From NCBI RefSeq assembly GCF_007753095.1, contig NZ_CP036348.1:4402001-4466000 (forward strand): a stretch of 64,000 nt of DNA, written 5' to 3'. Below are positions 3,841 through 9,701 of this stretch, one piece after another. Source of the stretch: Rosistilla carotiformis. Its GTDB lineage: Bacteria; Planctomycetota; Planctomycetia; Pirellulales; Pirellulaceae. The notes below the pieces were generated by a model that was not told the DNA's origin, did not search any database, and was given only the letters and a program-made list of their open reading frames with translations. Both the position numbers and the translations under genes were made by a program. Position 1 is the first letter of the stretch. Each line of letters begins with the position of its first letter.

Positions 3841-4338
3841 CTAGGATCCCGTGGACGGCGAACCCGACTGATCGGTGTAGATGTCCAACGCATCGATCCA
3901 CGCCGCCAATCGGTTTGCCGACTGGGGCAGCCCGTTTTCAGAAAGTTCGGTCATCGCTCCCAGTTCGCCGATGAACCGATCGACCACGCGGTCGACCTCC
4001 GCCGCGATCCGTTTGCAGACTTTCAATTTGTCCAAACAATAACCGACCCGCTTTTTACAGCGCGCCAACATGATCTCCGCTTCCGTATTGCGCGTCCCGT
4101 CGGCCGTGTCATGCGAGATCTTGGCACGCGCCATCGCTTCGTGCGCCATTTGCATACGTCGCTCGGCCAGCTGCAGCTGCGATTGCCAATACTGGCGGCG
4201 TTCCACCGTAATCTGCTCTCGAAACCGATGCGCTAACTGACGCAATTGGGTCGCATGGTCGTCGCATTCGTCGGACAACCGGAGCACTGCAGTGTGCAGG
4301 CTTCGCAGCGCATCGACGCTTTTCACATCGCTGGACAC
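3841..4338 (-). CDS. Coiled-coil protein, third gene of the WXG100 operon
   Basis: The 165-residue product has no signal peptide or membrane segment and is mostly charged amphipathic helix. Its centre has an RRQYWQSQLQLAERRMQMA stretch (about 48-66) followed by heptad-like helices, and the tail is short and Ser/Gly-rich. It begins six bases after the stop of the WXG100 gene, so the two are almost certainly co-translated. From memory, similar helical proteins with a YW motif sit next to WXG100 genes in other planctomycetes. Function is unknown; a structural partner or chaperone of the WXG100 protein is inference. Confidence 0.78.
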   Translation of the reverse strand: MSSDVKSVDALRSLHTAVLRLSDECDDHATQLRQLAHRFREQITVERRQYWQSQLQLAERRMQMAHEAMARAKISHDTADGTRNTEAEIMLARCKKRVGYCLDKLKVCKRIAAEVDRVVDRFIGELGAMTELSENGLPQSANRLAAWIDALDIYTDQSGSPSTGS

Positions 4339-4344
4339 CGGCGG

Positions 4345-4614
4345 TTATCCTTTCAGGTAGGCATCGATCTGATCCGCTTTGCGAAGCAGATAGGGGATGT
4401 GCTGTTCTGCGGATTGAACGAAACGAGCCATCTGCCGCAGCTCATCTTCAAATTCCGCGGCGAAGCGACGATGCTGTTGATCGCGCCACGATTCACCCAA
4501 CTGGTTCATCTGCGACGACAGTGAACCAGCCCGTTGTTGCAGCTCTTCAGTGAAGACCTTGAGGTTCCCGGCGAACTGCCGCAGGTGGTCGGGATTAACG
4601 ATTGCTTGGGACAT
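4345..4614 (-). CDS. WXG100-family small helical protein
   Basis: The 89-residue protein starts MSQAIVNPDHLRQFA. Two predicted helices flank a turn with Trp43 in LGESWRDQ, so the WXG motif is degenerate (W-R-D). Length and layout fit the ESAT-6/WXG100 fold, whose members form helical hairpin dimers and are often type VII secretion substrates. I chose the ATG at 4614 because an AGGAG lies about 11 bases upstream and the longer frame only extends into the preceding gene. It overlaps the end of the TPR gene by 20 bases. No EccC/EssC-type ATPase is visible in this window, so secretion is not established. Confidence 0.82.
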   Translation of the reverse strand: MSQAIVNPDHLRQFAGNLKVFTEELQQRAGSLSSQMNQLGESWRDQQHRRFAAEFEDELRQMARFVQSAEQHIPYLLRKADQIDAYLKG

Positions 4615-5398
4615 GATCGGTCGTCTCCTGTTCGTGAAAATCAGCAGCCCCCTTGGCTTCCAGTCGGGCCAAGGCTTGGGTCGCAACGAGATCGTTGGGG
4701 TTCAATTGAAGGATACCACGCAGGTAACGTTTGCAAGTGGCGCGAAGGCCCAGTCGCGAGGCGAGATCGGCGGCATGACGCAACGCCGCCAGCTTGACAC
4801 TTGGTAGCGGTTGCAACGAGCGCCGCAAGGCCGCCCCCCGAAACGCGGTCAGCGCCGCTAGCGGTTCGTTGATTGCCTGCAAGCACATGCCGCGAACCAA
4901 AAACGCCTTACTGCACTCTTGAGGATCTTCCAACGCCGGTTCCAACGCGGCGATCGCCTCGTTAAATTTCCCCATCTCATACATCGCTTCGGCCATCACG
5001 ATGCACAGGTTGGTCTGGCTAGGATCGCGCAGCAGCCGCTTGCGACAGACTTCGGCGCGACGTATCGCCCACTCGTGCTGTGCCCGCTCCAGATCGCTGG
5101 TCACATCGGGCGTCGGATGTTGATTGTGCAACCCCTTGAGCTCTTTTAGACGCTGCAGGCTGCGCGCCAATTCCGCCTCTTCCAGTTCCCAAAGCACATC
5201 GGGATCATCACTGGCAACTCGCACCGCTTTTTCGAGCACCTTCTGCGCTTCGGCCGGCTTATCGATCGCCCGGTGGATTCGCGCCAATTCCAGATAAGGC
5301 GCGACGTCGGCCGGAGCATCGCGAATGCTCATCTCCAGTGCCTGACGTCGCTGCACCGAAGTGTCGAAATCCGTGGATCCGGAATCGTCCGTCGACAT
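4595..5398 (-). CDS. Tetratricopeptide-repeat protein, first gene of the WXG100 operon
   Basis: The 267-residue soluble protein contains TPR-like helical pairs: about 32-65 (APYLELARIHRAIDKPAEAQ), 127-160 (LCIVMAEAMYEMGKFNEA), 163-195 and 203-245. It has no signal peptide or membrane helix. The ATG at 5398 is chosen over an in-frame upstream Met because AGGAAAG precedes it at good spacing and the upstream extension is Arg-rich and unlike a protein. The end overlaps the WXG100 start by 20 bases, implying translational coupling. TPR proteins are scaffolds, so a chaperone or adaptor role for the WXG100 protein is plausible but unproven. Confidence 0.85.
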   Translation of the reverse strand: MSTDDSGSTDFDTSVQRRQALEMSIRDAPADVAPYLELARIHRAIDKPAEAQKVLEKAVRVASDDPDVLWELEEAELARSLQRLKELKGLHNQHPTPDVTSDLERAQHEWAIRRAEVCRKRLLRDPSQTNLCIVMAEAMYEMGKFNEAIAALEPALEDPQECSKAFLVRGMCLQAINEPLAALTAFRGAALRRSLQPLPSVKLAALRHAADLASRLGLRATCKRYLRGILQLNPNDLVATQALARLEAKGAADFHEQETTDHVPSNR

Positions 5399-5600: not shown

Positions 5601-8600
5601 TCAACGGTTGCGTTGATCGAAAGCGGCCATGTACGCAGGGACCAAGATCGTGCGTACATAAAAGGTATCGACCAATACCCCCAGCCCCAACGCAAAGCCG
5701 AGTTCAACGACGCCGCGAAGCATGATCGGCGGTTGGTCTTGCGCTTGGCCGATTCCGACCCATTGCATCAATTCCGGGGCCCACGCCGACGCGGTCATTG
5801 CAAAAAACGTCCCTGCCATCACGACGCCACAACTGGTGATGATGCCGCCGGTCCGAATGATCGCTCTTCGCAAACCCGCCAACCGCCCGCCTCGCTTCTG
5901 TTCTTCCAACACGCGAGTTACCAGGTAGACGTTGTAGTCTTGCCCGACAGCCACCAGGATGACAAACAAAAACAGCGGCAGCTTCCAGTCCAAACCGACG
6001 AATTGATCGCCGTAGACAGTGCGAAAAAATGCGATCGTCAAGCCGAGCGTAGCATAGTAGCTCAGCAGGACGGTGGCGATCAAATAGAGGCTCAGCCCAA
6101 ACCGCCAGACGACCATCAGCAAGATCATCAGCACCGCGCCGACGACAAAAAACTTGATCCGCATCGTGTCGCGTGTGGTCACATGTTTCAAGTCTTCCAT
6201 CGACATCGCCGTTCCGGTGACCTGCAATTCGCAATCGCTAACCGGCGATGCAATGAAGCGTGTCTTGACGTCTGGCATCGGGTCGATCCCGAGTTCGGCG
6301 TCTCCATTGCGAAGCGCCTCTTTCAAACGATTCGCAAACGGAACCAGGCCATCGCCGCGGTTCATCGTCACCAACACCTCGCCGCGGCCGGCGACTTCGG
6401 CACCTTCGTCGTAATCGAACCAAGCCATCCCCGACGTGCTCAGCTGCCAATCGACCGACTTCACCCCCTCAAGCGCCTGCTTCGGCGGCGGGATCGTTTT
6501 TTCGAGTCGCACGATCGCATCTTGAATTTGACCAATCGCCAGGTCGGTCGCTTCCATACCGCCGATCTCAGGCGTCACCACGATCAGAAACTGGCTCATC
6601 AAATCATCGACGCGTTCGACCACCCGGTCCAACACCGCGGCCGCCGCGTCGCCAAACGGCTCTTCGTCGACCAACACGTCCAAGCGGATCAAACGGTTCG
6701 CGTACGAAGCTTCGTCGCTGGTAAAATAACGCCGGCTCACGCGATGCTGCTTCAACACCCAACCGACCAACGATTCGATCGCAAACACACTCTTCCGTTT
6801 TCCCGGCGGGTTGTCCCCCAACGGATCTTCCAAGTACCGGATCCCGCGCACGCCTTCGACCTGATAGATCGCCGATACCAAATCGCGCAACGACGCACGG
6901 CTGACTTCCGGATCGACCGGATGTTCATGCAGTAACAACAGCACGATCGGATTCGATTCCCCCAACGAATACGAATGCGACAACGTTTGCACGCCCTGGC
7001 GGCTGCGCGCTTCGGCATTTAATTGCGTCGTCACGTCGTAACTGACATCGCCTTCGTGCTGGAATCCATAGATTGCTGGAATGGTCAATAGACCGATCCC
7101 GCCGACCAACATCCACTTGGGACGCTGCGTTACAACCAACGCGATGAACCGCCAGAAGACGGCTTGTTGTTCACTGCGTTCCAGTCTTCCAGGCCAAAAC
7201 ACGCGAGGCCCCAGGGCATACAGCAACGCAGGCGTCAGCGTCGTGCAGACCAGCAGCCCCACCAACAAACAGATCCCGATGATCGGCCCGACGTAATGGA
7301 ATTTCCCAAAGTCGGCGACCCACATCATCCACAGTCCAACGACCGTAGTTAGCGCGCTGCCCAACAACGCTCCCATCACCTTGGAGAGCGCTTGTTCGAC
7401 GGCCAGCCCCCAGTCCAATTCGGCAGCTTCTTCGCGTAGCCGCGCGATTAAAAACAGGCAGTAATCAGTCCCGGCACCAAACAGGATCACAACGACAAAG
7501 ATCTTCGACGTCGTGAAAACCTTTAACCCAATCCATTCCAATCCAGGTTGCTGGCCGGCGGACGCCAAGGCCGATACGAGCCCGGTGGCGCATGTCACTG
7601 CGACACCGATCGAGACCAACGGAACCGCCACCAGCGCGGGGGCACGGTAGACGACCGCCAGGATGATCATGATTAAGATCACCGTAAACCATTCGGTGTA
7701 TTTGATCGCGTCCCTTGCTGCGATCAATGTCTCGCCGCCGATCGCCGCCGATCCGGAGATCTCGATTCGCAAGCCGGGTTCGGCCAGTGGCAACGAATAT
7801 GCTCGCACCGAATCAATCAATTGGTCCAGCGACTCCATCAATTCGATATTGCCGGTCGCCAAAAACTCCGTTTCCAATCGAATCACGACCAACCGCAGAT
7901 CGCGTTTGCTCAATCGCTTGCCGATCCGTTCGTCGTCCCACGACAGGATGTCCAGCATCGCGTCCAACGATTTGTCGCGGTCTTCGATTGGCGTCGCCGA
8001 TTCGATCTCCGGATCCAACGCCAGGGCGATCTCCCGATCGCTTGCGGCGAGGTCGTGCTTGCCCAGCGAATCGTGCAGCCGGGCGCGGTCCCAATACGCG
8101 ATCGCAACGCGCGGTTCGTACCACGGATCGGTGCCGGCGGAGATCGAATCTTCAAAGTATTCGTAGAACAGCGTGTCGAGTTCGATCGAGCGATCGAAGG
8201 CGTCCAACGCGTCGTCGACAAGTTCGCGAACGTGATCGTTGACCGGAGCCGTTTTGCCCGACCATCCATTCGCCAAGGCCCGGCGAACGTAGACGCATCC
8301 CAGGCGATGGCGCAGCCGACGCGAGAGATCCATCGCAACGTGTTGATCGCGTTTTCCGATCTTCTTCCCGTCGCGAGCGAACAGGATCATAAACTGGCTG
8401 CGCGGACGCTCGGTCGGAAACGCGGCGTCCAGAAGCTTGGTTCCCGCCACGCTGGCGGTCGTCGGCGGAAGGTGTTCGAAGTCGCCGTCGTAGGCGACTT
8501 GTTTCCAACTCGGAGCGGCCACGCGACTGACGATCACCGCAGCCAGCCACAGCAGCAGCACCCAACGCCAGTGGCGGATGACGAAATGCGACCAGCGTTG

Positions 8601-8627
8601 GCTGAGGTGGGGAAGGAGCGGAGGCAT
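5601..8627 (-). CDS. MMPL/RND-family membrane transporter with a TPR-like insert
   Basis: The 1008-residue inner-membrane protein has a first helix at about 17-37, a long periplasmic region, a block of helices starting WFTVILIMIILAVVYRAP, a second periplasmic region and a second helix block, the duplicated RND layout. MMPL members export lipids or hydrophobic molecules using the proton gradient; the substrate here is unknown. Within the first periplasmic region, residues about 173-209 (RVAIAYWDRARLHDSLGKHD and on) read like a TPR helix pair, which is unusual. The gene begins 21 bases after the alcohol dehydrogenase stop, so they may be cotranscribed. Confidence 0.92.
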   Translation of the reverse strand: MPPLLPHLSQRWSHFVIRHWRWVLLLWLAAVIVSRVAAPSWKQVAYDGDFEHLPPTTASVAGTKLLDAAFPTERPRSQFMILFARDGKKIGKRDQHVAMDLSRRLRHRLGCVYVRRALANGWSGKTAPVNDHVRELVDDALDAFDRSIELDTLFYEYFEDSISAGTDPWYEPRVAIAYWDRARLHDSLGKHDLAASDREIALALDPEIESATPIEDRDKSLDAMLDILSWDDERIGKRLSKRDLRLVVIRLETEFLATGNIELMESLDQLIDSVRAYSLPLAEPGLRIEISGSAAIGGETLIAARDAIKYTEWFTVILIMIILAVVYRAPALVAVPLVSIGVAVTCATGLVSALASAGQQPGLEWIGLKVFTTSKIFVVVILFGAGTDYCLFLIARLREEAAELDWGLAVEQALSKVMGALLGSALTTVVGLWMMWVADFGKFHYVGPIIGICLLVGLLVCTTLTPALLYALGPRVFWPGRLERSEQQAVFWRFIALVVTQRPKWMLVGGIGLLTIPAIYGFQHEGDVSYDVTTQLNAEARSRQGVQTLSHSYSLGESNPIVLLLLHEHPVDPEVSRASLRDLVSAIYQVEGVRGIRYLEDPLGDNPPGKRKSVFAIESLVGWVLKQHRVSRRYFTSDEASYANRLIRLDVLVDEEPFGDAAAAVLDRVVERVDDLMSQFLIVVTPEIGGMEATDLAIGQIQDAIVRLEKTIPPPKQALEGVKSVDWQLSTSGMAWFDYDEGAEVAGRGEVLVTMNRGDGLVPFANRLKEALRNGDAELGIDPMPDVKTRFIASPVSDCELQVTGTAMSMEDLKHVTTRDTMRIKFFVVGAVLMILLMVVWRFGLSLYLIATVLLSYYATLGLTIAFFRTVYGDQFVGLDWKLPLFLFVILVAVGQDYNVYLVTRVLEEQKRGGRLAGLRRAIIRTGGIITSCGVVMAGTFFAMTASAWAPELMQWVGIGQAQDQPPIMLRGVVELGFALGLGVLVDTFYVRTILVPAYMAAFDQRNR

Positions 8628-8648: not shown

Positions 8649-9701
8649 TTAGAGACCCGCGGGGCAGATGAGCACTTTCATCGCCTCGGGCTCTCCGGCA
8701 TACAATCGCTCAAACCAAGCGGGGCCCTCTTCGAGCGTCGCTTTGGCGGTGATCAACGGTTCGACTTGGATCTGACCGGTTTCCAGCAACTTGATGCAGG
8801 CCGGGTATTCTCCGCTGGAGGCACAGCTGCCCAAGACGTTCAACTCGCGCGTGACAACCGACTGCAGCGGCAGCTCGATGTTCGGCGAGATGTTTCCGAC
8901 CAGCGTGACGGTGCCCCCTTTGCGAACGCTGTCGATCGCTGTCTTGACCGTCGGCGTCGCCCCAACGACTTCGAGCGCGACGTCGGCGCCGCGGCCACCG
9001 GTCAGTTCCGCCACGCGGGCGACGACATCTTCTTTGGATGCGTCGATCGTCACGTCGGCTCCCAGCGTTTTGGCAACTTCCAATCGGTTGGCGTTCAGGT
9101 CGGTCGCGATCACTCGCGAGCAACCGGCCAGTTTGATCGCTTGGATCACCAGCAGACCGATCATCCCGCTGCCAACAACCACCGCGGTGTCGCCCAGGGA
9201 AACGGGCGTCCGCTCCGCCGCATGGACCGCGACGGAGATCGCTTCGATCAACGCGGCCTGTTCGAACGAGACAGCATCGGGCAATTCGTAAACGATGTGA
9301 CGAGGAACCGCCACGTATTCGGCGAACGCACCGTACTGCCGATATTCGCCGCACGAGACGCCCAGCACGCGGCGGTTGTCGCACAGGTTCATCTCGCCGC
9401 GGCGGCAGAAGTGACACTTGCCGCACCAGACCATCGAATCGAAAGTCACTCGCGTGCCGGCGGGCAGATCGGTCACGCCGCTGCCGACCGAAGCGACGAC
9501 GCCCGACGCTTCGTGCCCCATCACCAACGGCGGAATCCGCCGACCGGTGCTGCCGTCGTAGCCGTGGATGTCGCTGCCGCAAATGCCGCACGCCTTCACT
9601 TGAACCAAGACGTCGTCGGGGCCTAGTTCCGGAACGGGGATCTCCGCCAGTTCCAATTTTTTGTATTCGGTCAGCAGCATTGCTTTCATGGGGCCATCCA
9701 T
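8649..9701 (-). CDS. Zinc-dependent alcohol/polyol dehydrogenase (MDR family)
   Basis: A medium-chain NAD(P)-dependent dehydrogenase of 350 residues. GICGSDIHGYDG supplies the catalytic zinc Cys, GHEASG the His-Glu pair, and C-x2-C-x2-C-x7-C (CGKCHFCRRGEMNLC) the structural zinc site. VVGSGMIGLLVIQ is the Rossmann nucleotide loop. The closest general type is sorbitol/threonine/galactitol-phosphate dehydrogenase; the substrate cannot be read from the sequence. A second in-frame ATG at 9689 (MKAMLLTEY) is the more typical family start. It sits between bioD and the MMPL gene in one minus-strand run. Confidence 0.9.
   Translation of the reverse strand: MDGPMKAMLLTEYKKLELAEIPVPELGPDDVLVQVKACGICGSDIHGYDGSTGRRIPPLVMGHEASGVVASVGSGVTDLPAGTRVTFDSMVWCGKCHFCRRGEMNLCDNRRVLGVSCGEYRQYGAFAEYVAVPRHIVYELPDAVSFEQAALIEAISVAVHAAERTPVSLGDTAVVVGSGMIGLLVIQAIKLAGCSRVIATDLNANRLEVAKTLGADVTIDASKEDVVARVAELTGGRGADVALEVVGATPTVKTAIDSVRKGGTVTLVGNISPNIELPLQSVVTRELNVLGSCASSGEYPACIKLLETGQIQVEPLITAKATLEEGPAWFERLYAGEPEAMKVLICPAGL

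Follow-up and report, generated by a model that had tools for sequence, protein, structure and literature searches.

Type VII secretion systems (T7SSs) have been described mainly from the Bacillota and Actinomycetota, and systems built on WXG100 proteins were reportedly the subject of a paper by Sutcliffe in 2011. An operon of the planctomycete Rosistilla carotiformis, in which a WXG100 gene lies between genes for a TPR protein and a coiled-coil protein, raises the question of what machine such a protein could serve in this lineage. The preliminary description of the window, that is, the whole 64,000-nucleotide stretch analysed here (G000:C1:4402001-4466000 of a 7.44 Mb genome assembled as a single contig), had noted that no EccC/EssC ATPase is encoded nearby and had proposed a planctomycete-specific export or envelope system. 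This interpretation is partly supported: we judge the frame of an export-like planctomycete system to be right, and no such ATPase is present in the window, but an EccC-like motor is encoded in the same genome (Table 1). As this likely motor lies 3.68 Mb from the operon, a reading confined to the neighbourhood misses the machine.

Table 1. Genes of the operon and its distant partners; positions are those of the window or, where prefixed G000:C1, of the chromosome.
Feature	Position	Strand	Description
TPR protein gene	5398..4595	-	267 aa; ATG start
WXG100 gene	4614..4345	-	89 aa; ATG start; W43-R44-D45; HP0062-type
Coiled-coil protein gene	4338..3841	-	165 aa; GTG start
Small WXG-like hairpin gene	G000:C1:729422-729673	-	83 aa; invariant W-x-D...F motif; outside the window
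EccC-like motor gene	G000:C1:725249-729229	-	1,327 aa; outside the window

The three genes of the operon are real and, as had been proposed, translationally coupled: the TPR and WXG100 genes overlap by 20 bases (4595-4614), and a six-base gap (4339-4344) separates the latter from the coiled-coil gene on the same strand. The assignment of the middle product to the WXG100 family is beyond chance (PF06013, e-value = 3.3e-10, 40.5 bits against a cut-off of 27.3), and it is the only such gene recovered from the genome by this model at e-values <= 0.001; the NCBIfam model TIGR03930 scores 33.2, below its cut-off of 44.85. The nearest solved structure is HP0062 (PDB: 3fx7; e-value = 3.8e-11), with the A1 profile aligning positions 1-87 to residues 1-87 of HP0062, and this end-to-end homology to a solved helical hairpin would place the protein in the hairpin class of ~100 residues. 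Trp43, pointed out earlier, is confirmed and is followed by Arg44-Asp45, although the view that this W-R-D is a degenerate motif does not survive comparison with its relatives. The literal W-x-G is absent from the bend in the aligned core relatives, 29 of 29 of which show W-R-D, the invariant positions being W43, R44, D45, F51, P74, K79, A80 and Y86; because HP0062 also has W-R-D, a literal W-x-G is not decisive for membership in the family.

Searching the whole genome for FtsK/SpoIIIE domains recovered one EccC-like motor, at 0.725 Mb, whose gene sits behind that of a second WXG-like hairpin. Its best matches in PDB are EccC5 and 4nh0, an entry that was deposited under the name FtsK/SpoIIIE and that we take to be an EccC, followed by YukB and lower down by FtsK; the NCBIfam EccC/EssC models match it below their cut-offs. 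Three FtsK-like domains can be distinguished, the third being clearly homologous to the second (probability 97) and the first being linked to them through the third (probability 71; the first against the second alone gives no support, with a probability of 1.3). A Walker A motif is found in the middle domain only, in 65 of 65 core motors. The long N-terminal region precedes and surrounds the predicted membrane helices; two of these are predicted at residues 219-263 in the motor of the window's genome, and among core motors a helix pair is predicted in 26 of 29 and a single helix in three. We thus reject the notion that this genome lacks such an ATPase. The same search gave a frame of 967 aa at 3.43 Mb, which scores 213 bits and presumably encodes FtsK itself, one weak match, and a protein of 662 aa carrying an FtsK/SpoIIIE domain at its C-terminus (L007 1066-3054; G000:C1 ~3.00 Mb), beside a MATE-like transporter (named by eye). 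Neither the 967-aa nor the 662-aa protein was taken as the WXG100 partner.

The coiled-coil protein, which is 158-221 aa long among core representatives, contains an invariant Y50-W51 in an alignment of 24 family sequences and is predicted to fold into two long helices (4-75 and 81-158) that make up a hairpin (AlphaFold2 pLDDT 91.2). We rejected it as another WXG100 protein, since hhalign against the WXG100 profile returns a probability of 24 over 35 columns. The Pfam WXG100_2 model yields a sub-threshold hint (e-value = 0.061), the comparison with the small hairpin an hhalign probability of 4, and searches of PDB by sequence and by fold weak matches with unrelated names; the protein is accordingly described here as a modelled hairpin whose kinship to the WXG100 family is unclear. 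For the small hairpin, a PDB profile search recovers EsxA (e-value = 1.9e-4) mixed with unrelated coiled coils, and the best Foldseek e-value is 2.7.

We read 20 family loci, nearly all of them chosen for the proximity of the WXG100 and motor genes. Two of these (L086 and L094) represent a divergent variant, and 17 of the 18 core loci display the order WXG100 - coiled coil - small hairpin - motor, the middle two genes being uncalled in the remaining one (L087). Across 16 motor loci from other families, nine have the full cassette (in L142 the small hairpin comes from a separate search), the motor stands alone in six, and in one it is accompanied by the small hairpin. The conserved unit is hence this four-gene cassette rather than the TPR - WXG100 - coiled-coil trio originally envisaged: gene order elsewhere gives no ground for refuting the WXG100 - coiled-coil pair, whereas it weakens the TPR part of the proposed synteny. 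No fifth conserved gene stood out; the commonest non-TPR neighbour cluster occurs in 11 of 59 loci, within two genes of the cassette in 5. Stop codons flagged inside 7 of 39 locus matches can each be read as an ordinary gene end, lying no more than 10 residues from where the match ends. A scan of named genomes added two loci from Rubripirellula and, on a contig of a gammaproteobacterium, a match of 15 residues.

The TPR protein itself is recognised by PF14559 (e-value = 2.8e-11) and other TPR models. We rejected it as a core part because only 52 of the 149 family genomes have a relative (e-value <= 1e-15), 49 of these also having a WXG100 gene, and because the relative adjoins that gene in 31 of the 83 family genomes that have one; it is present in 13 of the 59 loci. 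Genomes G011 and G075 carry a TPR relative with neither WXG100 nor motor, and G088 one with the motor only. The TPR gene is thus a clade-level neighbour, whose product is possibly an adaptor or chaperone in one clade. Directly upstream of it in the window, on the same strand, is a gene for a 1,008-aa MMPL-family transporter (5601-8627, minus strand; PF03176, e-value = 7.1e-77), relatives of which were not found beside cassette genes elsewhere among the called genes of the 59 loci. Further upstream lies a gene (8649-9701, minus strand) that by eye resembles those of zinc-type alcohol dehydrogenases, and a close relative of it (e-value = 4.5e-163) adjoins the TPR gene of G083 (L084 13281-14321), a hint of old shared synteny.

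Genomes that have one of the WXG100 and motor genes almost always have the other. With e-value thresholds of 1e-3 and 1e-6 for WXG100 and of 1e-20 and 1e-40 for the motor, 82 of 149 genomes of the family sample have both genes, one WXG100 only (G098), four the motor only (G088, G089, G094 and G119) and 62 neither; in the phylum sample of 294 genomes, 40 have both, one the motor only (G365) and 253 neither. Of the genomes with at least one of the two genes, 82 of 87 in the family and 40 of 41 in the phylum sample thus have both, and this extends to genomes with a split cassette (Fisher values of 7.5e-36 and 1e-48, uncorrected for shared ancestry). These counts bear on the idea that TPR, WXG100 and coiled-coil proteins form a system operating without any EccC-type ATPase. 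The three-gene operon itself has no gene for such an ATPase, and G098 combines a TPR relative with a partial WXG100 match in the absence of a motor match; nevertheless, the window's own genome encodes the motor, as do 82 of the 83 family genomes and 40 of the 40 phylum genomes that carry WXG100, which makes this idea scarcely credible.

The cassette has been repeatedly broken up. Of the same 82 family genomes, 41 have the WXG100 and motor genes within 8 kb on one contig, 13 have them on one contig at a distance, and 28 have them on separate contigs; in these last, linkage could be masked by draft assembly. The small hairpin gene stays with the motor in the window's genus and with WXG100 in G097; in G129 the TPR-WXG100 pair, the coiled coil, the small hairpin and the motor occupy four separate places. 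Strong dispersal, with the four co-inherited genes at three or four distant chromosomal places, is seen in G129, G036 and G172.

Copy number is usually one, the deviations being G016, whose second motor is truncated, G224 with its two motors, and G021 and G138, which carry extra variant copies. In the motor tree, 11 of the 12 genera with at least two members each form one group, while g46 has to be explained by two changes; the two large groups of the family meet only in a fork that the tree does not resolve. This genus-wise grouping points to descent within lineages accompanied by many losses, and speaks for a core version that is mostly vertically inherited, with older transfers between families being possible. 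An alternative is a non-exporting scaffold of the envelope or cell cycle, in which the WXG hairpins would serve a membrane motor as subunits for assembly or regulation, e.g. in budding or in chromosome or envelope organisation. Parts scattered over the chromosome as housekeeping genes are, the long helices in the motor and its partner, and the absence of recognised cargo genes would all suit a scaffold. However, the absence of both genes from 62 of 149 family and 253 of 294 phylum genomes implies that the system is not essential to planctomycete cell biology, and a separate FtsK/SpoIIIE protein, the 967-aa frame, is available; we regard the scaffold as unlikely.

We favor instead, as probable though well short of certain, the interpretation that planctomycetes possess a minimal, membrane-anchored, type VII-like export machine with four co-inherited parts, two of which the window operon encodes together with the clade-level TPR protein. 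We read these parts most readily as a T7SS-like export machine, export itself being putative. The WXG100 protein and the small hairpin might pair to form a four-helix bundle, which, along with the coiled-coil protein, could bind to the motor, whose degenerate outer domains are a conceivable docking site; ATP hydrolysis by the middle domain would then drive the helical bundle, and escorted cargo, if any, across the inner membrane, with the TPR protein acting as chaperone or adaptor in one clade. For planctomycetes in general, we give about even chances to a vertically inherited, membrane-anchored, four-component T7-like secretion subtype in a diderm envelope that would export a WXG100/W-x-D heterodimer with its coiled-coil partner, its genes dispersing yet remaining co-inherited.

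The divergent variant brings in another possibility, namely an intracellular nucleic-acid defence module, in which motor, WXG and coiled-coil proteins would constitute a sensor/motor complex directed at invading nucleic acid, with nothing being exported. The variant loci (L086 4108-16166; L094 1566-13837) code for vWA proteins, a WXG100 protein with W-Q-D, a coiled-coil protein of 436-443 aa, a kinase (L086) or a PP2C (L094), and an MkoA-like helicase, and their motors, of 987 aa (L086) and 698 aa as called (L094), are devoid of predicted membrane helices; both genomes also carry the core genes. By eye, the longer C-terminal part of the variant coiled-coil protein resembles a published coiled-coil/endonuclease fusion. 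These features recall the EssC-like module of Type III-A CoCoNuT systems, for which the accessible part of PMC11090510 describes a motor with an active middle domain only, an N-terminal coiled coil and no membrane helices, two WXG100 proteins (one lacking the motif), a coiled-coil protein fused to an endonuclease-like domain, and flanking vWA genes. In gene content, as far as tested, L086 and L094 fit this module, and a defence function could hold for such CoCoNuT-associated modules. With respect to the core version, the motor's FtsK domain matches PADLOC SspH (e-value = 2.4e-25) and mad8 (e-value = 9.2e-21), and a kinase-like gene (e-value = 6.2e-6) lies ~3 kb from the cassette in core locus L138. 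Against this, the PADLOC matches span the generic FtsK/HerA domain, relatives of the variant's vWA, PP2C and helicase genes occur only in the two variant loci among the called genes of 59 loci, core coiled-coil proteins leave no room for a C-terminal extension, and the core motor, unlike the variant ones, has predicted membrane helices and is usually a single-copy gene following the genera. Defence is thus an improbable role for the core cassette, and membrane-anchored export the preferred one.

How this cassette relates to established systems can now be considered. According to the accessible part of PMC11217815, a WXG100 protein and an EccC/EssC-like motor are the two components common to the T7SSs of Actinomycetota and Bacillota. 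Both occur in the planctomycete cassette, whose motor has EccC-type proteins as its nearest PDB matches, three FtsK-like domains and predicted membrane helices. Relative to T7SSa (ESX) and T7SSb (Ess/Yuk), it differs in its planctomycete host, in a long N-terminal region that replaces the FHA domains, and in a first domain without Walker A, which in EssC is present in both D1 and D2. Searches of the window's genome recovered no EccB (with no positive control over the cut-off), no YukC/EssB, and YukD only below cut-off (e-values = 0.235 and 0.73). Closer in the WXG100 protein is Helicobacter pylori, where HP0062, described as ESAT-6-like, with WRD in its bend and encoded in a cluster that includes an FtsK/SpoIIIE gene (PMC3397514), and HP0066 are held to be paralogs of a minimal T7SS pair (PMC4978471). 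The two share with the planctomycetes the WRD hairpin and the FtsK/SpoIIIE gene; in the accessible parts of these sources, a coiled-coil/small-hairpin cassette does not feature.

A survey of diderm secretion systems, in its accessible part, omitted ESX on the ground that diderm-LPS bacteria lack it (PMC4793230). With a membrane-anchored relative whose set of parts is constant across several planctomycete families, it would become directly testable whether a WXG100/EccC-like pair brings about secretion in a diderm, and with what minimum of parts. The open-access literature searched yielded no description of a planctomycete WXG100/EccC cassette. The class as such had already been noticed: footnote 6 to Table 1 of Zhang et al. 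2012 (PMC3482391, as far as accessible) lists a "solo WXG" with a YueA-like three-domain ATPase, active in the middle domain, from several lineages including planctomycetes, among "mobile versions of T7SS". An ATPase of three HerA/FtsK domains, of which the middle one alone is active, fits the planctomycete motor, while the genus-wise motor tree argues against calling the core version mobile; this version is usually single-copy, predicted to be membrane-anchored and accompanied by two further conserved partners. What is new, as far as searched, is therefore a mostly vertically inherited, membrane-anchored, four-part planctomycete form of this class, without the nuclease extension.
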